This document shows positions 1 through 34,064 of a DNA stretch of 34,064 nt, piece by piece. The notes under the pieces were generated by a model. The model was not told the DNA's origin. It saw nothing but the letters and a program-made list of their open reading frames with translations, and did no database searches. The stretch spans positions 1-34,064 of IMG/VR virus record IMGVR_UViG_3300044630_001736. One strand, written 5' to 3'. Both the position numbers and the translations under genes were made by a program. The stretch's first letter is position 1. Each line of letters opens with the position of its first letter. Source of the DNA: a virus.

Positions 1-834
1 AAAAGTCTATATAGCAATATAGCTGGATCCGGGCCTGGCGAGATTGCGTTTGACGGAAGTGTGCTACCCACAACAGACTCCAAACGAGCTGAAATCACTG
101 ATTATATCCGTATGCGTCTGGGTGACGGTATAGTGGACGTAGAGCTGGACAAAGAACACTACGAGATGGCTATTAAACAAGCCCTGGTAAAATATCGTCA
201 ACGTGCCAGCAACAGCACTGAGGAAAGCTATGCTTTTCTAGATCTACTGCCAGAAACACAGGAATATATACTGCCCCCTGAGATACAAACAGTTAAACAG
301 ATTCACCGTCGTGGTATTGGAAGTGTGACCGGAACTACTGCCAGCCAGTTTGAGCCATTTGCATCAGGATATCTGAACACATACATGTTGGTGGCTGGGC
401 GTGTGGGTGGATTAACCAACTACGAACTATTCGTAGACTATCAGAAGTTGGCCATGCGTATGTTCGGTGGCTTTATGAATTTCACATTCAACCCAGTTAC
501 TAAAAAGCTGACCATTGTGCGTAAAATGCCATTTGGCTACGCTGGTGATCAGGCTGAAAGTGTGTTGTTACACATATACAACGTCAAGCCAGATCAGATG
601 ATACTGAGCGATACTTATGCGTTTCCCTGGATACAAGAGTATGCCTACAGTTTTGCCAAGCGTATCCTGGGTGAAGCTCGCAGTAAATTCCAGAGCATTG
701 TGGGCCCACAGGGTGGAACCAGTCTAAACGGCGACGCCTTAAAGTCAGAAGCACAATCTGAGATGGAAAAACTGGAAGAAGATCTCAAGACCTACGTAGA
801 TGGATCAACTCCCCTGACCTGGGTAACTGGTTAA
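1..834 (+). CDS. 13: Neck protein, T4 gp13-like (5' end outside window)
   Basis: This is the head-tail connector (neck) protein that helps close the filled head before tail joining. The N-terminal part (RLG, then VELDKEHYEMAIKQAL) matches the start of T4 gp13 in pattern, and the C-terminal part (WIQEYAYSFAKRILGEARSK, then a GG.SLNGD segment and a charged helix) matches the gp13 C-terminus. The reading frame has no stop back to base 1, so the GTG at 61 is probably internal and the true start lies to the left of the window. About 277 residues are visible, against 309 in T4 gp13. It lies upstream of the tail sheath, as in T4, but a dNMP kinase and an antisense gene intervene. The family call is from remembered similarity; the open left edge is directly seen. 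Confidence 0.8.
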   Translation, partial: KSLYSNIAGSGPGEIAFDGSVLPTTDSKRAEITDYIRMRLGDGIVDVELDKEHYEMAIKQALVKYRQRASNSTEESYAFLDLLPETQEYILPPEIQTVKQIHRRGIGSVTGTTASQFEPFASGYLNTYMLVAGRVGGLTNYELFVDYQKLAMRMFGGFMNFTFNPVTKKLTIVRKMPFGYAGDQAESVLLHIYNVKPDQMILSDTYAFPWIQEYAYSFAKRILGEARSKFQSIVGPQGGTSLNGDALKSEAQSEMEKLEEDLKTYVDGSTPLTWVTG

Positions 835-8425: not shown

Positions 8426-9141
8426 CACGTCTAGACAGCGTCAAACAATTTATAGCAGAACACCAACACCGAACAATTGAATATCCCGAAGTACCACAAC
8501 TGGAAAATGAGTGGAAACGTGCTGAATGGATATTCAGAGAAAGCCATCTGCCGTATTTAGAAATGGATATATCCATGCCCTATGCTGAGATATTGGCAGA
8601 GGCCCGGGCTGTTAGACATCGCTTTGTAACTCATCGCGAAGGCGACGGTGAAGGTTGGATGAGCTTATGTATACACGGCATGAGTGCTGAACAGACAGAC
8701 GCACCCAATATGTATGGTTACACTCACGATACTGCCCCATACACATGGACTGACATTGCTGACTTATGTCCTGTGACCACAGACTATTTTAAAAATCAGT
8801 TTCCCTTTCAATTTTACCACAGACTACGTTTTATGTTGTTGAGGCCTGGTGGTTATATTGTACAACACAGCGACAACCGGACTAGTAATCTGGGTGCAGC
8901 AACCAACATCAGTTTAAACAATCCCGTGGGCTGCAAGTTTGTTACTGAACGTGGGCTAATACCATTTCGAGATACTGGTAGTGTTATGATGTTTAACAAC
9001 CACTATCAGCATGTGGTATTCAATGACAGCGATGAAGAACGTATTCACATTATCGTACATGGTGCCTGGGATGGCAGACGCTGGAATCCCATTATAAACC
9101 GTAGTTACGAACAGGCAAGAAATGGTCAGAACATTAGTTGA
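8422..9141 (+). CDS. 2OG-Fe(II) oxygenase, aspartyl/asparaginyl hydroxylase-like
   Basis: The second half carries the iron and cosubstrate signature of the aspartyl/asparaginyl beta-hydroxylase type: RPGGYIVQHSDN with H149-x-D151, then FNNHYQHVVFNDSDEERIHIIVHG giving distal H197 and R207 as likely Fe and 2-oxoglutarate ligands. The family hydroxylates protein side chains or small molecules; the target here is unknown. The 239-residue length fits a single catalytic domain. It overlaps gene 4 by four bases and the following gene by 20 bases, so it is part of the late operon. That placement is compatible with modification of a virion component, but this is inference. Confidence 0.75.
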   Translation: MTRLDSVKQFIAEHQHRTIEYPEVPQLENEWKRAEWIFRESHLPYLEMDISMPYAEILAEARAVRHRFVTHREGDGEGWMSLCIHGMSAEQTDAPNMYGYTHDTAPYTWTDIADLCPVTTDYFKNQFPFQFYHRLRFMLLRPGGYIVQHSDNRTSNLGAATNISLNNPVGCKFVTERGLIPFRDTGSVMMFNNHYQHVVFNDSDEERIHIIVHGAWDGRRWNPIINRSYEQARNGQNIS

Positions 9142-9790
9142 TTTTGTAAGTTTAGAAACCATCAATTGGTTTAAAGCTGACTGGGATCAGTATTTTGCGG
9201 CTGAGGATTATACAGTCATATCAGCAACGCCTGATGATGTCAAACGCAAATGGGGATTGGACAACTGGGATGTCAAGGATCGCAGACGCCAGCTGACATT
9301 TGATGATCCTGGATACAAACTAGCAGCACAACTAATACATAATTTTATTCCCAAGGATGTCCATTTTTGGGTAGCTTATCAACGTCAGTATATACCACAC
9401 AGTATGCATATAGACGAACCAGGCCCGGATGCCAATCCCGATTGGTTATACAGTGTCATAATGCCGCTAGATGCCGTCACTGCTGATGTGGCAAAAACTG
9501 TGGTCTGGAAAAAAGAATTCAAGCGGTTCAGCGAATATCTGGACTTTCAATCAGATTTTATCAGTCACCCAGAAAACTATACCCCAGTTAGTAATGTGTC
9601 AGAACTATACGATGTGGATCATTGTATGCTGAACAAAAACCCAGCTGATTACTTTGAGTTGGATGGCGTATACAACTATGAACTGGGCACAGCTGGTATG
9701 TTCCCCAGATGTAATTTACATTGCAGTAGCAACTGGCGCAAATACGGATTAGCTGAATACAAAGATATTCTAATATATCATATTGGTTAG
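9122..9790 (+). CDS. Putative second 2OG-Fe(II) oxygenase-like protein
   Basis: A 222-residue protein with a plausible jelly-roll iron site: YIPHSMHIDEPG (H96-x-D98) in the middle and FPRCNLHCSSNWRKYGLAEY near the end (H200, R206), followed by a final beta strand DILIYHI. The pattern and length fit a small 2-oxoglutarate oxygenase, but the overall sequence is divergent and the assignment rests on these motifs. It overlaps the preceding oxygenase gene by 20 bases, suggesting coupled translation and perhaps a joint pathway. It could instead be a cupin with a non-oxygenase role. The next gene (small terminase) begins just after its stop. Confidence 0.55.
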   Translation: MVRTLVDFVSLETINWFKADWDQYFAAEDYTVISATPDDVKRKWGLDNWDVKDRRRQLTFDDPGYKLAAQLIHNFIPKDVHFWVAYQRQYIPHSMHIDEPGPDANPDWLYSVIMPLDAVTADVAKTVVWKKEFKRFSEYLDFQSDFISHPENYTPVSNVSELYDVDHCMLNKNPADYFELDGVYNYELGTAGMFPRCNLHCSSNWRKYGLAEYKDILIYHIG

Positions 9791-9796
9791 TAAATA
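9789..9796 (+). promoter_or_regulatory. Late-promoter-like box before small terminase
   Basis: AGTAAATA resembles the late box, though less closely than others. Its last A is five bases before the ATG at 9801, the same tight spacing seen at 6103, 16369 and 30612. Confidence 0.4.
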
Positions 9797-9800
9797 CGAT

Positions 9801-10313
9801 ATGACCAAAAAATTAGAAGAAATATTAAACCTTCCCACGTTTACTGACGAAGATTCCCCCACCGTGGAAGAAGCTAAAGTGTTTATTGAAGAAAATCGCG
9901 AAATGATCGCACAAGTGGATACTGCCATTGATAAACTAGATGCAGCCATGCCCAGTGTTCGTGCTCTGGATGCATCAGATGACGAAATGGACGAGTTGGC
10001 AGACTACGCCAAAAGTAAAGCAGAAGATATGATGGACCTGGGTCTTAATGTTGACCCCAGATTTGCTGGTGTTATACTACAGACTGCCAGCAGTATGCTG
10101 GGCATGGCCATCACAGCCAAAACAGCCAAAATGGATCGTAAGCTCAGAACCCTGCAACTACAGATGCAGAAAGCCAAGTTGGATCATCAGATAGCCAAGG
10201 ATAACGCCAAAGGTGAGGGTGGAACCGCTGCTCCTGTAGAGGGAAAAGGCATCGTTTTAGACAGAAACGAACTTCTCCGGCAAATTCTAAGCAACCAGTC
10301 AACCCAAAAGTAA
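9801..10313 (+). CDS. 16: Terminase small subunit, gp16-like
   Basis: T4 gp16 (164 aa) forms rings that recognise concatemeric DNA and stimulate the packaging ATPase. This acidic, almost wholly helical protein of 170 residues has a long central helix pair (FAGVILQTASSMLGMAITAKTAKMDRKLRTLQLQMQKAKL) like the gp16 coiled-coil core, and a short C-terminal helix LDRNELLRQIL typical of relatives. I chose the ATG at 9801; a TTG at 9783 would add six residues and overlap the preceding gene. Unlike T4, where genes 16 and 17 adjoin, the large subunit lies 4.5 kb downstream. Confidence 0.75.
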   Translation: MTKKLEEILNLPTFTDEDSPTVEEAKVFIEENREMIAQVDTAIDKLDAAMPSVRALDASDDEMDELADYAKSKAEDMMDLGLNVDPRFAGVILQTASSMLGMAITAKTAKMDRKLRTLQLQMQKAKLDHQIAKDNAKGEGGTAAPVEGKGIVLDRNELLRQILSNQSTQK

Positions 10314-30611: not shown

Positions 30612-31772
30612 ATGCTACCAGCCAAAACAACATTCAATCCAGATCAATTCGGTTATTACACTGTGGGTAACGATTTTCGCACTTATAGTAAACTGGAAGC
30701 TATGCAGACCATGCAGCGTACTGGCATTCACCTAGAATGGAATTTTAACAAAGAAGTATTTGGGTCTTACGACTGGAAGACTGAACCCACTGAAACACTG
30801 CCTGAACTATACCGCCAACGAGCACAACAAATTCGTGACAGTTACGATTATGTGGTTATATTTTACAGCGGTGGTGCTGATAGTTGGAACATACTCAATA
30901 CATTTCTGTCCAATGGTATACGTGTTGACGAGATAGCACATTGTTGGAGTCTGGCTGGTGATCGAACTCATAGTAGCTATTTCAATGAGGAAGTCTATCA
31001 TGTGGCTATACCCAATAGTCAAAAAATAAAAGAACAATACCCAGACATTAATCATCGTATCATTGACATCAGCCAGACAGTTAACGATATGTACTTGCAA
31101 GGCAGCAACAAGTTTGATTTTATATATTACACCAACAGCTTAATCAGTCCCAATGGTCTGGCCCGCAGTTATTTGCGTGAAACAGTTCCAGAGTATCGTA
31201 ACATGATAGCCAGTGGTCAGCGTGTGGCGTTTATCTGGGGCACTGAGAAGCCCAGACTGCATCTGCGTGATGGTAGATATGCCTGTCAGTTTCTAGACAT
31301 GTTTGATAATACCGTCAGTAGTCGATTACAGAGTATAGCATTAGACAAAGGATACTATGATGAACTGTTTTACTGGAGCCCGGCCGCAGTGCCAATAATC
31401 ATTAAACAATGTCACCTGATGCGCAGATTTCTGTCAGTGGCAGATCCCAGGCATGTGTGGCTAGAAGATCAGACAGGTCCATACGGAAAAACCAAACAGG
31501 GTAATCGTTGGTTAACCAATCATGGCCTTCACAGCATAATATATCCTGGGTGGGATGTGAACACATTTACCAATGGTAAAAACAATCAGAGTGTGATTGG
31601 GCCACGTGATCGATGGTTCTGGTCACAGGATCCAGAAACCAATCCCGGATTGAAAATATTCAATGCCGGGGTACAAAAGATTTTCAGCAGTATAGATCGT
31701 TACTGGTACAATGTGGAAACAGATTGGCGACGTGGATTTAAAAACTGCATTAACGAGTATTTTATTGAATGA
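30612..31772 (+). CDS. PP-loop (adenine nucleotide alpha-hydrolase) family protein
   Basis: The motif VVIFYSGGADSWNIL with S86-G-G-A-D-S91 is the pyrophosphate-binding PP-loop of N-type ATP pyrophosphatases, which adenylate a substrate before amidation, thiolation or ring closure (QueC, asparagine synthetase and similar). The 386-residue protein has a short N-terminal domain before the loop, and a long C-terminal region with many Trp/Tyr. It is not close enough to any named enzyme for me to assign a substrate; a modified-nucleoside or peptide-modification role are both possible. Two promoters precede it. Its stop overlaps the methyltransferase start (31769-31772). Confidence 0.75.
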   Translation: MLPAKTTFNPDQFGYYTVGNDFRTYSKLEAMQTMQRTGIHLEWNFNKEVFGSYDWKTEPTETLPELYRQRAQQIRDSYDYVVIFYSGGADSWNILNTFLSNGIRVDEIAHCWSLAGDRTHSSYFNEEVYHVAIPNSQKIKEQYPDINHRIIDISQTVNDMYLQGSNKFDFIYYTNSLISPNGLARSYLRETVPEYRNMIASGQRVAFIWGTEKPRLHLRDGRYACQFLDMFDNTVSSRLQSIALDKGYYDELFYWSPAAVPIIIKQCHLMRRFLSVADPRHVWLEDQTGPYGKTKQGNRWLTNHGLHSIIYPGWDVNTFTNGKNNQSVIGPRDRWFWSQDPETNPGLKIFNAGVQKIFSSIDRYWYNVETDWRRGFKNCINEYFIE

Positions 31773-32425
31773 ACCTAGAACAATTTACACCAGAGCAGAT
31801 ACAACAGATAGCTAAAAAACTGACGATCCAGACAGTTGATCGTCAACAGACCATGACAGCAGCCCATAAGTTGTATTGGGATCAGCTGTGGCCGCAGAAG
31901 CTCAGAATCACAGATGGACTGGGTAAACGCTTATTGGAGAATACACAGTACACTGGTCTGGCACTGACTGCATCAGTAAACGCATTGGATCCTCAGTTGG
32001 TACTGGACATTGGGTGCGGACAAAACTTCTACAAAGGAAAGATACAAAACCTTGTGGGGATAGACCCTTACGGATCAGATGCAGATATACAGGCCGATTA
32101 CTTTAGTGGAATATTTGAGCAGATTGCTGATGTTATTTTGGTTTTGGGTGTGCTAGAATACGGTTCCAGAGCAGATGTTGTAAGTAAGTTACGATTTATG
32201 CACCGCAATTGTCATGCGGAAACACAAGTATTTTTTAGATTTAACGTATCACCTAGATTTGAACACGAAATAATAGACGGATATGATATCTGTTATTTTA
32301 TGGACAAGTTGGTACAGACTCCTGCAGAGTGGAATGACACTGTGGTGGAGTCGGGATATCAGATATTACACAGCGATTGGGACACACTGGGCCAACGCTG
32401 GCACATAAGGGCAAAACTAAAATGA
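31769..32425 (+). CDS. SAM-dependent methyltransferase-like protein
   Basis: A 218-residue Rossmann-type protein. LVLDIGCGQNFYKGKI (77-92) is motif I, NLVGIDPYG holds the acidic residue after strand 2, and IADVILVLGVLEYGSRADVVSKLRFMHRNC fits motif IV to V. The N-terminal 70 residues are helical. No substrate-recognition domain is apparent. It is coupled to the PP-loop gene by ATGA and overlaps the MazG-like gene by four bases, so the three are made together. The motif I loop is unusual in having QNFYKG after GCG, so activity should be treated as likely rather than certain. Confidence 0.7.
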   Translation: MNLEQFTPEQIQQIAKKLTIQTVDRQQTMTAAHKLYWDQLWPQKLRITDGLGKRLLENTQYTGLALTASVNALDPQLVLDIGCGQNFYKGKIQNLVGIDPYGSDADIQADYFSGIFEQIADVILVLGVLEYGSRADVVSKLRFMHRNCHAETQVFFRFNVSPRFEHEIIDGYDICYFMDKLVQTPAEWNDTVVESGYQILHSDWDTLGQRWHIRAKLK

Positions 32426-32712
32426 ACGAGATTGTTAAAGAAATACTAATTATATTACAGGAAGAAGCTGCTGAGGTAATTCAGGAAGTCAGCAAGGTAC
32501 AGAGGTTTGGTCTGGACAGCACTCACAAGAGTGGCAAGACCAATCAGCTGGCACTGGAACAAGAGATAGGAGATTTCCTAGCCATGGTGGAATTGTTGCG
32601 CGAACGTGGTATAGTTACTGATGCTGGGCTGGCGGCAGCTCAAGCACGTAAAGTTGCAAAATTACAACAGTGGAGTAATATTTTTGGTGACACAAAGCAA
32701 TACAACGCTTGA
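32422..32712 (+). CDS. MazG-like nucleotide pyrophosphohydrolase
   Basis: A 96-residue all-alpha NTP pyrophosphohydrolase of the MazG type. The metal-binding residues are EEAAE (14-18) and EIGD (48-51), with the intervening KVQRFGLDS..KSGKTNQLALEQ segment typical of this superfamily. MazG proteins in aquatic phages are thought to hydrolyse dNTPs or NTPs, affecting nucleotide pools or alarmones. I start at ATG 32422, which overlaps the preceding stop; an in-frame ATG at 32377 lies within the methyltransferase gene. The TGA stop overlaps the -35 box of the following strong promoter. Confidence 0.85.
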   Translation: MNEIVKEILIILQEEAAEVIQEVSKVQRFGLDSTHKSGKTNQLALEQEIGDFLAMVELLRERGIVTDAGLAAAQARKVAKLQQWSNIFGDTKQYNA

Positions 32713-32738
32713 CAGAAAGACTAAATAAAATATATAAT
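32709..32738 (+). promoter_or_regulatory. Perfect-consensus sigma70-type promoter for an RNA locus
   Basis: TTGACA (32709-32714) and TATAAT (32733-32738), both perfect, 18-base spacer. A CTAAATA late-like box lies inside the spacer (32721-32727). The predicted start is near 32745. There is no clear downstream gene, so it appears to drive RNA. Confidence 0.8.
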
Positions 32739-32744
32739 TACTTT

Positions 32745-32956
32745 AATATGAAAACAAACACTTTTAACCATTCGTACATATCACAACAGCCCACAGGCTT
32801 CGTCGCCTATTGGTCAGTGTGTGCATCTGCGACAATGATTAATAGTGATCGCAAGCCAGAGGGAACCGTCAGGGTCCGTGGAGAACAGGATAATTGAGCT
32901 AATAGGCTAATATCCAGACTACACAGACCCTAGGCTAACCCCTAGGGTTTTTTGTT
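32745..32956 (+). ncRNA. Short promoter-to-terminator RNA unit, function unknown
   Basis: Between the perfect promoter and a strong terminator lies about 210 bases with no convincing gene. Local pairings include AGGC/GCCT (near 32794-32807), TGCGA (32828-32832) with TCGCA (32849-32853), and GGATA (32888-32892) with TATCC (32910-32914). A reading frame from ATG 32748 (49 codons) would begin almost at the predicted start site without a ribosome site and has no recognisable product. I therefore read this as a small non-coding RNA of about 200 nt. No known RNA family is recognised. Confidence 0.55.
32927..32956 (+). terminator. Rho-independent terminator of the small RNA
   Basis: ACCCTAGG (32927-32934) pairs with CCTAGGGT (32941-32948), loop CTAACC, followed by TTTTTTG and more T. 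Eight perfect pairs. Confidence 0.88.
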
Positions 32957-32959
32957 TTC

Positions 32960-33276
32960 GGCAGTAAGTGGAGTAGGTAACGAGAACCGTGACACCACTA
33001 TAATAAACAGAATGGGCGGACAGTCGCATAAAACCGGAGGCGGTAACTCTGGGAGTAAGACAACTGGTTGGGGCACAGACCCCATCTACAGAGTGGCAAC
33101 ACTCTGTATAGTAAAGCGCATTGATGAACAGTGAGCCTGCAAAGCTCAGTCCACTTGAAACGGAATATTTGCCTAACTTGCGGCAACCCAGTGTGCTTTA
33201 CTATATCCTCTGGAAGAACATGGCGCGAGCCGGCTCCTGCGACGAGTAGTTGGAATAGGCCAACCACCAGAGGATT
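32960..33276 (+). ncRNA. Large structured RNA region, unassigned
   Basis: About 320 bases without a gene but with dense, mostly perfect complementarity. Stems: AGTGG 32967-71 with CCACT 32995-99, enclosing GGT/ACC; ACCG/CGGT (33033-33044); TGGGG/CCCCA (33069-33084); an 8-bp hairpin 33088-33095 with 33100-33107 capped by a GCAA tetraloop; a 13-bp helix 33108-33120 with 33192-33204 (one G-T), enclosing two hairpins TGAGC/GCTCA (33132-33148) and TTGCC/GGCAA (33169-33186); and CCTCTGG 33207-33213 with CCAGAGG 33267-33273, enclosing GTTGG/CCAAC (33249-33264). Helices follow each other almost without spacing, as in compact folded RNAs. RNase P and tmRNA hallmarks are absent. Its place beside phage tRNAs recalls large phage RNAs such as GOLLD or ROOL, but I cannot align it to either. 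Confidence 0.6.
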
Positions 33277-33285
33277 TCTTTTTAT

Positions 33286-33359
33286 TCCTCTGTAGTTAAA
33301 TGGTATAACGGTCGGCTGATAACCGGCTATTACAAGTTCGATTCTTGTCGGAGGAACCA
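33286..33359 (+). tRNA. tRNA-Ile (GAT)
   Basis: Acceptor TCCTCTG/CGGAGGA, anticodon stem GTCGG/CCGGC with loop CTGATAA (anticodon GAT), T-loop GTTCGATTC, discriminator A, encoded CCA. Its 5' acceptor strand repeats a segment of the structured RNA just upstream. Confidence 0.88.
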
Positions 33360-33366
33360 ATTTTTA

Positions 33367-33441
33367 GGGCTGTTAGTGCTAATGGGAACACATCTGGTTT
33401 GCAACCAGAAATTGAGAGTTCGATTCTCTCACGGTCCACCA
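33367..33441 (+). tRNA. tRNA-Ala (TGC)
   Basis: Acceptor GGGCTGT/ACGGTCC, anticodon stem TCTGG/CCAGA with loop TTTGCAA (anticodon TGC), T-arm GAGAG TTCGATT CTCTC, discriminator A, encoded CCA. The third acceptor pair is G-T, that is the G3:U70 identity pair of alanine tRNAs, supporting the call. Confidence 0.82.
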
Positions 33442-33443
33442 TC

Positions 33444-33451
33444 GATAAATA
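33444..33451 (+). promoter_or_regulatory. Late-promoter-like box before tRNA-Gly
   Basis: GATAAATA lies in the 19-base gap before tRNA-Gly. With T4 spacing, the start would be at about 33457, four bases before the tRNA. Confidence 0.35.
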
Positions 33452-33460
33452 ATTTTTAAT

Positions 33461-33536
33461 GCGGGTGTAGCTCAGCTGGTAGAGCGCCACGTTGCCAACG
33501 TGATTGTCGTCGGTTCGAACCCGATCACCCGCTCCA
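33461..33536 (+). tRNA. tRNA-Gly (GCC)
   Basis: Acceptor GCGGGTG/CACCCGC all paired, D-arm GCTCAGCTGGTAGAGC, anticodon stem CACGT/ACGTG with loop TGCCA centre (anticodon GCC), T-loop GGTTCGAACCC, discriminator T, encoded CCA. Confidence 0.93.
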
Positions 33537-33541
33537 ATAAT

Positions 33542-33617
33542 ATCTCTCTAGTGTTTAACGGCAGCACGACGGTCTCCAAAACCGCAAGACAAGGTTCGAA
33601 TCCTTGGAGGGGTGCCA
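33542..33617 (+). tRNA. tRNA-Trp (CCA)
   Basis: Acceptor ATCTCTC/GAGGGGT with two T-G pairs, anticodon loop CTCCAAA (anticodon CCA) on a stem with four good pairs, T-arm CAAGG TTCGAAT CCTTG, discriminator G as in tRNA-Trp, encoded CCA. Confidence 0.82.
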
Positions 33618-33767
33618 AGTTTCGGGTTAGACGGCAGGGTTGTAGCGGCTACAGGGTCCGAAGTAAGCTGGTATGGATTGCCCTAGATTGAAATGTTAAC
33701 AGAGTCTCCCCAGTTCGAGACAATCCAGCGAGTCCTAATCAGATAGCTGGGCACCCGAAAATCATTA
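33618..33767 (+). ncRNA. Structured RNA element between tRNA-Trp and tRNA-Thr
   Basis: 150 bases with no plausible gene. An 8-bp perfect helix TTTCGGGT (33620-33627) with ACCCGAAA (33753-33760) closes almost the whole interval. Inside are a TGTAG/CTACA hairpin (33641-33653), GGATT (33675-33679) with AATCC (33722-33726), extendable by GCT/AGC around a bulge, and GTCTC (33704-33708) with GAGAC (33717-33721). It would be excised from the tRNA precursor by 5' and 3' tRNA processing, leaving a free structured RNA. No family recognised. Confidence 0.6.
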
Positions 33768-33841
33768 GCTCTTATAGGTAAATGGTATACCGGCGCCATG
33801 GTAAGGCGTAATTCCAAGTTCGATCCTTGGTGAGAGCACCA
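33768..33841 (+). tRNA. tRNA-Thr (GGT)
   Basis: Acceptor GCTCTTA/TGAGAGC, anticodon stem GCGCC/GGCGT with loop ATGGTAA (anticodon GGT), T-arm CCAAGTTCGATCCTTGG, discriminator A, encoded CCA. Confidence 0.88.
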
Positions 33842-33842
33842 A

Positions 33843-33872
33843 TTGACATATAAAACACTTTCGTGCTATACT
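33843..33872 (+). promoter_or_regulatory. Sigma70-type promoter for rpoZ-like gene
   Basis: Perfect TTGACA (33843-33848), 18-base spacer, TATACT (33867-33872) preceded by TGC, an extended -10. It starts two bases after tRNA-Thr. A GGAG at 33885-33888 precedes the ATG at 33895. Confidence 0.8.
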
Positions 33873-33894: not shown

Positions 33895-34064
33895 ATGCTG
33901 AACAAAATTACCAAGAGTCGTGGTCCTGATCTTGACACCAACAAATGTGTCAAAATGGTTGGTGGTAGCAAATTTGATCTTATTTTGATCGCTGCCGCCC
34001 GGGCACGAGAGTTGGCTCAGATTCATCGAGCTGGTGATGGTGCAGCAAGTCTACACGCACCAGT
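33895..34064 (+). CDS. rpoZ: RNA polymerase omega subunit-like protein (3' end outside window)
   Basis: The visible 56 residues contain the core of RpoZ: KCVKMVGGSKFDLILIAAARARELAQ, comparable to the NRFDLVLVAARRARQMQ helix of E. coli omega, including the invariant R-x-R-x-L-type pattern by which omega clamps the beta' subunit. The gene begins MLNKITKSRGPD, with a short extra N-terminal stretch, and continues past the right edge. GGAG at 33885-33888 and a near-perfect sigma70 promoter precede it, so it should be transcribed by host polymerase from the start of infection. Its product may replace or compete with host omega. The assignment is from sequence pattern; I cannot see the C-terminal part. 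Confidence 0.78.
   Translation, partial: MLNKITKSRGPDLDTNKCVKMVGGSKFDLILIAAARARELAQIHRAGDGAASLHAP

Follow-up and report, generated by a model that had tools for sequence, protein, structure and literature searches.

What RNA, if any, occupies the gene-free stretch of about 320 bases beside a tRNA cluster in an uncultured phage, and why does it stand at that place? The DNA analysed here, called the window, comprises 34,064 nucleotides (positions 1 to 34,064 of IMG/VR virus record IMGVR_UViG_3300044630_001736). A sequence-only reading had proposed a dense multi-helix RNA at 32957-33285. On the plus strand, this stretch folds with a minimum free energy (MFE) of -111.1 kcal/mol, compared with -91.0 ± 5.3 kcal/mol for 100 dinucleotide shuffles, none of which was as good (z -3.79), and the reverse strand folds more weakly (z -2.72). 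Lack of a folding excess, lack of covariation in relatives and a protein-coding signature, the three outcomes named beforehand as speaking against such an RNA, all failed to appear. The stretch is a real structured RNA of a new family. The proposal that a phage tRNA cluster is accompanied by a structured non-coding RNA was thus upheld, while the family, the rule governing its position and an attenuator upstream of it had gone unseen.

The RNA family and the tRNA arrays that follow it

The RNA element starts at about 32966, 13 nt past an intrinsic terminator. Its conserved domain (P1-P7, 32966-33116, plus strand, as are all features of the window given below) is backed by covariation and scores 122.8 bits in cmsearch with covariance model R1, built from 35 sequences. 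With pair coordinates taken from the sequence, P1 (32967-32971 with 32995-32999) is AGUG/CACU in the family, and P2 (32976-32988) is a hairpin with a conserved AACGAGR loop, AACGAGA in the window. P3 is an H-type pseudoknot, with its 5' strand within P1 and its 3' strand outside, and its own pairing scored 10.7, compared with 7.0 ± 0.33 when partners were swapped between phages. The fold was confirmed by the comparative data, but this pseudoknot had been missed by the earlier reading. The GGGCGGA strand (33014-33020) is invariant across the family, which is no independent evidence because it belongs to the search pattern. It is followed by P4 (33021-33024 with 33063-33066), P5 (33034-33039 with 33047-33052), P6 (33067-33086) and P7 (33087-33108). 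The P5 loop is GCGRUAA, and its flanks AUGAA and AGUAAGA (the latter at 33054-33060) resemble a bulged-G (loop E) motif in sequence. P7 is a hairpin of 8-9 bp with a GCAA tetraloop, already recognised as an 8-bp GCAA hairpin, and its loop is GNRA or similar across the family. For P2 and P4-P7, 95.8% of cells pair, and the covariation score was 0.518 compared with 0.157 after shuffling; none of 500 shuffles reached it, and it was lost on sliding. On 96 distinct model-fitted sequences the score was 0.631, in an alignment that leans towards structure.

The long helix earlier noted as enclosing hairpins is P8, an 18-bp helix (33106-33123 with 33189-33206; span 33106-33206) that encloses a 65-nt variable insert in the window. 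Most relatives have a helix in a similar place, usually of 12-24 bp, with the form conserved and the sequence not; in the homologue L003, it is shortened to a short hairpin with a GAGGU-type loop. A boxA-like reading of the P8 strand UAUUCUAAAACA was dropped, the segment being paired and its sequence not conserved in the window. A 3' domain (33206-33275), with a UCCUCUGG/CCAGAGGA helix around a GUUGG/CCAAC hairpin, ends 10 nt before tRNA-Ile and is present in the homologue L002 and absent from L003. The 3' part as a whole (33124-33188 and 33206-33275) is lineage-specific, common to L002 only among the aligned loci.

By way of relatives of the MazG-like gene at 32422-32712, the RNA was found in two syntenic homologues, L002 (80% identity) and L003 (68%); L004 gave a match to the core. 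The search motif GGGCGGA-N17-20-GGNGRYAAC-N5-7-AGTAARA, derived from four sequences, occurs in at least 119 IMG/VR stretches; two narrower exhaustive scans of IMG/VR gave 54 and 25 stretches. In 257 Gb of GTDB genomes the motif occurred only three times, without nearby tRNAs or resembling flanks. These cellular matches, rejected as chance by their flanks, also calibrate chance. Model R1 matched all 100 sources tested and all 20 parent genomes, with a single copy in 19; in the sole two-copy contig (524 kb), each copy is accompanied by a leader, a terminator and a tRNA array. With stricter filters, R1 had no match in the genomes of 11 cultured phages (T4, PA5oct, Paride, Atu_ph07 and Phosso among them), and blastn with three queries found no cultured phage carrying the RNA. 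The RNA is a widespread, virus-only family of uncultured phages.

The GOLLD and ROOL RNAs also have a tRNA-side location (PMC12286853), as would be expected if the present RNA were a divergent member of a class already described, be it GOLLD, ROOL, RNase P RNA, tmRNA, Y RNA or T4 RNA C/D. Such membership is extremely improbable. Rfam 15 gave no family over the RNA at the gathering threshold in the window, nor up to E 5 in 32700-33860, and up to E 1 in 11 relatives it gave none over the RNA, the matches being only tRNAs, chance or tRNA-like. GOLLD (RF01998) and ROOL (RF03087) had no covariance-model match in any of these searches. RNase P RNA, tmRNA and group I introns had no Rfam match, and ARAGORN found no tmRNA in the window, so that the earlier failure to place the RNA in GOLLD, ROOL, RNase P or tmRNA persisted even at permissive thresholds. 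For the Y RNA YrlA, no match at gathering score lay over the RNA; its matches overlap tRNAs or a tRNA-like stretch of L110. The latter (531-593, minus strand, outside the RNA core) is a YrlA-like partial match of 44.6 bits against a gathering score of 69, which may reflect only a tRNA-like fold. GOLLD and ROOL are likewise large structured phage RNAs near tRNA islands, but they are several hundred nucleotides long compared with about 110-320 nt here and are unrelated by Rfam, whereas the present RNA stands strictly 5' of the array and is preceded by an attenuator. Small stable RNAs in a phage tRNA cluster are also known from T4, namely RNA C and RNA D (species 1 and 2), but these lie at the 3' end of the cluster. 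They were rejected as homologues at the level of model R1, which, up to E 10, matched nothing in L149 or the whole T4 genome, RNA C/D included; the positive controls of this search matched in 20 of 20.

The position of the RNA follows a strict rule. Downstream sequence of 1 kb was available for 63 loci; a same-strand tRNA follows the RNA within 1 kb in 60 of them (median 195 nt) and within 1.4 kb in the other three, and no opposite-strand tRNA lies within 3 kb. The 5 kb after the RNA hold a mean of 11 tRNAs. The window array (33286-33841), called by ARAGORN and syntenic in L002 and L003, consists of tRNA-Ile(GAU), Ala(UGC), Gly(GCC), Trp(CCA) and Thr(GGU). Just four strong intrinsic terminators were found in 37 arrays of 2.35 kb each, as expected for one long transcription unit.

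Several neighbours of the RNA were also recorded. Between tRNA-Trp and tRNA-Thr lies a second conserved RNA (33620-33765) without an Rfam match; L002 has it at 96% identity, and it can be recognised in about 20 further arrays by the motif GGGAUAGACG...GAGUCCC...ACGAGACAAUCUAG...AAGAUAG. The gene directly before the attenuator (32422-32712) encodes a MazG-like NTP pyrophosphohydrolase (phrog_4856, E 4e-21), and for the gene at 31769-32425 no relatives were found in the viral collection. Right after the array, 33895-34064 holds a gene start, truncated by the window end, that is like the omega subunit of RNA polymerase (PF01192, below cut-off at E 2.5e-4). The MazG-like and omega-like genes hint, speculatively, at interference with starvation signalling.

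Leader, antiterminator and terminator upstream of the RNA

The stretch 32740-32960 folds with z -5.0 and was considered as a second non-coding RNA; it was rejected because its alignment showed a small ORF and a terminator, and the attenuator reading follows from this alignment. The attenuator spans 32709-32953, directly before the RNA. A σ70-type promoter recognised from its sequence (TTGACA at 32709-32714, 18-nt spacer, TATAAT at 32733-32738) stands 9 nt before the ATG of a 49-codon leader ORF (32748-32897) encoding MKTNTFNHSYISQQPTGFVAYWSVCASATMINSDRKPEGTVRVRGEQDN, which is conserved in L002 and L003; the leader mRNA would therefore be almost leaderless. Region 2, the 5' arm of the antiterminator (CAGGGTCCGTGGAG, 32870-32883), overlaps the last codons of this ORF and pairs with region 3, the 3' arm (CTACACAGACCCTAGG, 32919-32934). 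CCCTAGG is common to region 3 and the intrinsic terminator at 32925-32953 (AGACCCTAGG CTAACC CCTAGGGTTTTTT), in which 32928-32934 pairs with 32941-32947 ahead of a T run at 32948-32953. The best duplex of the window leader reaches -20.4 kcal/mol, and none of 100 dinucleotide shuffles was as good. When folding was computed with a ribosome at the stop codon, the probability of the terminator was 1.0; with a mid-ORF stall it was 0.0, and with the ribosome stalled at Trp the antiterminator was the MFE structure. There is no second promoter in the approximately 13 nt between terminator and RNA.

This arrangement recurs across the family. Of 82 loci, about 77 have a strong intrinsic terminator upstream of the RNA; it stands immediately ahead of P1, as in the window, or a small ORF separates it from the RNA. 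In each of the 75 non-redundant loci, the end of the leader ORF falls inside region 2 or adjoins it. Compared with 100 dinucleotide-shuffled leaders per locus, the antiterminator duplex was equalled by at most five shuffles in 69 of the 75 and by none in 44 (median z -3.4); in L003, GGGGUCUUGGUUA pairs with UAACCAAGACCCC without a mismatch. A TTGACN-N15-19-TANNNT site occurs no more than 110 nt upstream of the leader ORF in 62 of the 75, compared with 5% of random positions. In 31 loci only 6-11 nt lie between the end of the -10 box and the leader ATG, and these leader mRNAs would likewise be nearly leaderless; 33 of the 75 leaders start with ATGATG. Used as a detector, the joint signature fired at the leader in 117 of 123 loci and at one other place in 2.07 Mb.

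The median probability of the terminator with a ribosome at the stop codon was 1.0 over the 75 loci. In equilibrium folding, a mid-ORF stall lowered this probability by more than 0.5 in 32 loci and raised it by that much in none. In the other 43, switching would therefore have to be kinetic, with regions 2 and 3 pairing before region 4 is synthesised. Of the 52 loci in which the extra small ORF occurs, 26 have a second σ70-like promoter past the terminator, as do 3 of the 25 others. Such a promoter would bypass the switch, and basal expression is likely in the former 26. In about 50 loci (e.g. L027, L063 and L115), a conserved small protein of 43-62 amino acids, probably helical and with a motif such as AEQLAxLIEAKLERA, is encoded between terminator and RNA. 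For the members tested, Pfam gave nothing significant and PHROG gave weak matches only, and in one subgroup the start of the ORF overlaps a TTGACA..TACAAT promoter.

Attenuation in response to single amino acids is textbook knowledge, and its core features are found here. A short leader ORF, whose translation is predicted from sequence statistics, precedes an intrinsic terminator; the antiterminator is mutually exclusive with that terminator, and its 5' arm overlaps the 3' end of the leader; and the regulatory codons before region 2 are present in a new form, in which all amino acids are sampled. As in the trp and his attenuators, the position of a ribosome on a short translated leader would decide between antiterminator 2:3 and terminator 3:4, and the stop codon overlaps region 2. 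However, in trp and his leaders the codons of one regulatory amino acid, or of a few, are stacked, and the genes under control serve biosynthesis, whereas the phage leader contains every amino acid once or a few times and would control tRNA genes and a structured RNA. In silico, a trp-type attenuator switch is well supported by these predictions.

The leader ORF could instead encode a functional protein, the terminator just ending its mRNA and both the antiterminator pairing and the residue diversity being incidental. Small phage proteins are common, and this ORF has its own promoter and terminator. Yet the pairing goes beyond shuffles in 69 of 75 loci, the peptides diverge widely between groups, that of the window having no Pfam or PHROG match, and the terminator stands right before an RNA for which the window offers no other promoter. 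Given also a residue diversity confined to the coding frame (z about 10; see below), we regard the protein explanation as very improbable.

A scan for the same signature in regions of cultured phages gave leader-antiterminator-terminator units just upstream of the tRNA arrays of two rhizobial jumbo phages that are without the R1 RNA, Agrobacterium phage Atu_ph07 (L188, approximately 9090-9250, minus strand) and Sinorhizobium phage Phosso (L187, approximately 9750-9975). The Atu_ph07 leader has 18 of the 20 residues in 42 amino acids, with an antiterminator of -22.5 kcal/mol, and the Phosso leader has 19 of 20, with an antiterminator of -24.2 kcal/mol. These units are leads resting on position, not proof, because the scan also gave two matches judged spurious, in T4 and on the other strand of Phosso. 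Between the Phosso unit and the first tRNA, an unannotated stretch (L187, 10115-10330) that by eye appears structured, with two TTGACG promoter-like sites before it, is possibly another array-leading RNA.

Amino-acid composition of the leader peptides

The window leader contains 19 of the 20 amino acids in its 49 codons, lacking Leu only. Such completeness recurs in the 42 leaders that share less than 50% identity: averaging 44 amino acids in length, they contain a mean of 18.9 distinct residues, compared with 17.1 expected from background composition, 16.8 from the leaders' pooled composition and 16.7 from windows of real proteins (z 9.4-10). Control small ORFs from the same contigs (n = 5702) contain 16.2 (z 11.4). 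All 20 residues are present in 20 of the 42 and, among leaders of 35-50 amino acids, in 13 of 30, compared with 1.4% of 1648 control ORFs; L107 and L058 each hold all 20 in 40. Frames +1 and +2 of the leaders give only 16.1 and 16.6 distinct residues, and the pangram signal therefore belongs to the coding frame. The part upstream of region 2 alone contains 18.6 distinct residues in 37 codons, and the leaders use 33.1 distinct codons compared with 30.6 under synonymous resampling (z 8.3). Trp is found in 74 of 75 leaders, His in 73 and Cys in 66; Asp is missing in 10 of the 42 diverged leaders. Leader length ranges from 20 to 68 codons, and a small number of leaders are short and miss many residues (L051: 22 amino acids, 14 residues). 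Second-round scans yielded new leaders that were nearly all close to known ones and so form no separate validation set.

Beyond the 3' end, which is constrained by the RNA, the leader sequences share almost nothing. Any ribosome stall on the leader would free region 2, and leader-controlled attenuation by macrolides exists (PMC4335068; PMC6851288). The leader might thus be a general sensor of translation rate or of antibiotics and arrest, or a nascent-peptide arrest system of the TnaC or Erm kind, rather than a sensor of aminoacyl-tRNAs. Arrest peptides conserve a specific sequence, however, whereas these leaders conserve amino-acid completeness and codon diversity, and we judge an arrest or rate sensor unlikely. 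Apart from stalling at scarce tRNAs, we know of no force that selects amino-acid completeness in an otherwise free peptide.

Proposed control of the tRNA operon

Computation established the RNA family with its structure and position, the promoter, the leader ORF, the antiterminator and terminator pairing and the pangram property. From these we infer a shortage of aminoacyl-tRNA as the cause of stalling, the read-through that would follow and the molecular function of the RNA, and we propose the following scenario, in which leader-peptide attenuation probably governs a phage tRNA operon and the RNA is the first product made from it. The σ70 promoter would start a transcript with a leader ORF carrying nearly every amino acid. 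When all aminoacyl-tRNAs are available, the ribosome would reach the stop codon and cover region 2, so that region 3 would pair with region 4 and the terminator would stop transcription. When any one charged tRNA is short, the ribosome would stall upstream, region 2 would pair with region 3, and RNA polymerase would continue past the terminator to transcribe the structured RNA and the array. The shortage may arise from host tRNA cleavage, host shutdown, starvation or codon mismatch, and the operon would replace tRNAs when translation lacks them. It counts against this scenario that the antiterminator would tend to form without translation too, and low translation of any cause could therefore switch the operon on. 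T-box riboswitches, which bind one uncharged tRNA directly, likewise control transcription by tRNA charging, but the signal of the phage attenuator would be a translating ribosome; the T-box model of Rfam had no match in the window at the gathering threshold or in 32700-33860 up to E 5.

RNase III-like cleavage at P8, a helix similar to RNase III substrates, together with RNase P acting on the first tRNA, would release the RNA from the transcript. We favour a discrete, stable, pseudoknotted RNA that acts alongside the tRNAs, although the chances of this are only about even. The main rival is a role in cis, as a processive antitermination or anti-Rho element that would let RNA polymerase complete a long untranslated tRNA array, in place of a separate functional RNA. 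HK022 put and EAR are promoter-proximal structured antitermination RNAs before a long transcription unit, and the present RNA is like them by analogy, with no sequence relation shown: it is always promoter-proximal to the array and on its strand, in some loci the promoter ends about 10 nt before P1, and the arrays are long and mostly untranslated. The scarcity of strong intrinsic terminators in the arrays, however, leaves little for a cis-acting RNA to override except Rho, and an override of distal intrinsic terminators has little support. In addition, P8 together with RNase P at the next tRNA would sever the RNA from the elongating transcript, and a cis role leaves the loops conserved in sequence and structure unexplained. 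We therefore hold this role to be possible but somewhat doubtful.

Why and when phages use tRNA arrays is an open question, and defence against tRNA-cleaving nucleases is one recent proposal. No sensor of the whole amino-acid alphabet is known to us, and no papers on such a sensor or on attenuation of phage tRNA operons were found among the open-access papers searched. If a leader that reads every amino acid gates the array of the present phages, the array would be an on-demand replacement kit, and the pangram leader gives predictions at the codon level. With covariation behind it and no entry in Rfam 15, the RNA family is a new candidate component of the phage takeover of translation. Taken together, a universal sensor of aminoacyl-tRNA shortage, a pangram of amino acids and partly of codons, probably gates the phage tRNA array along with a pseudoknotted RNA of a new class, both serving one programme of translation rescue that possibly answers host defences that cleave tRNAs.
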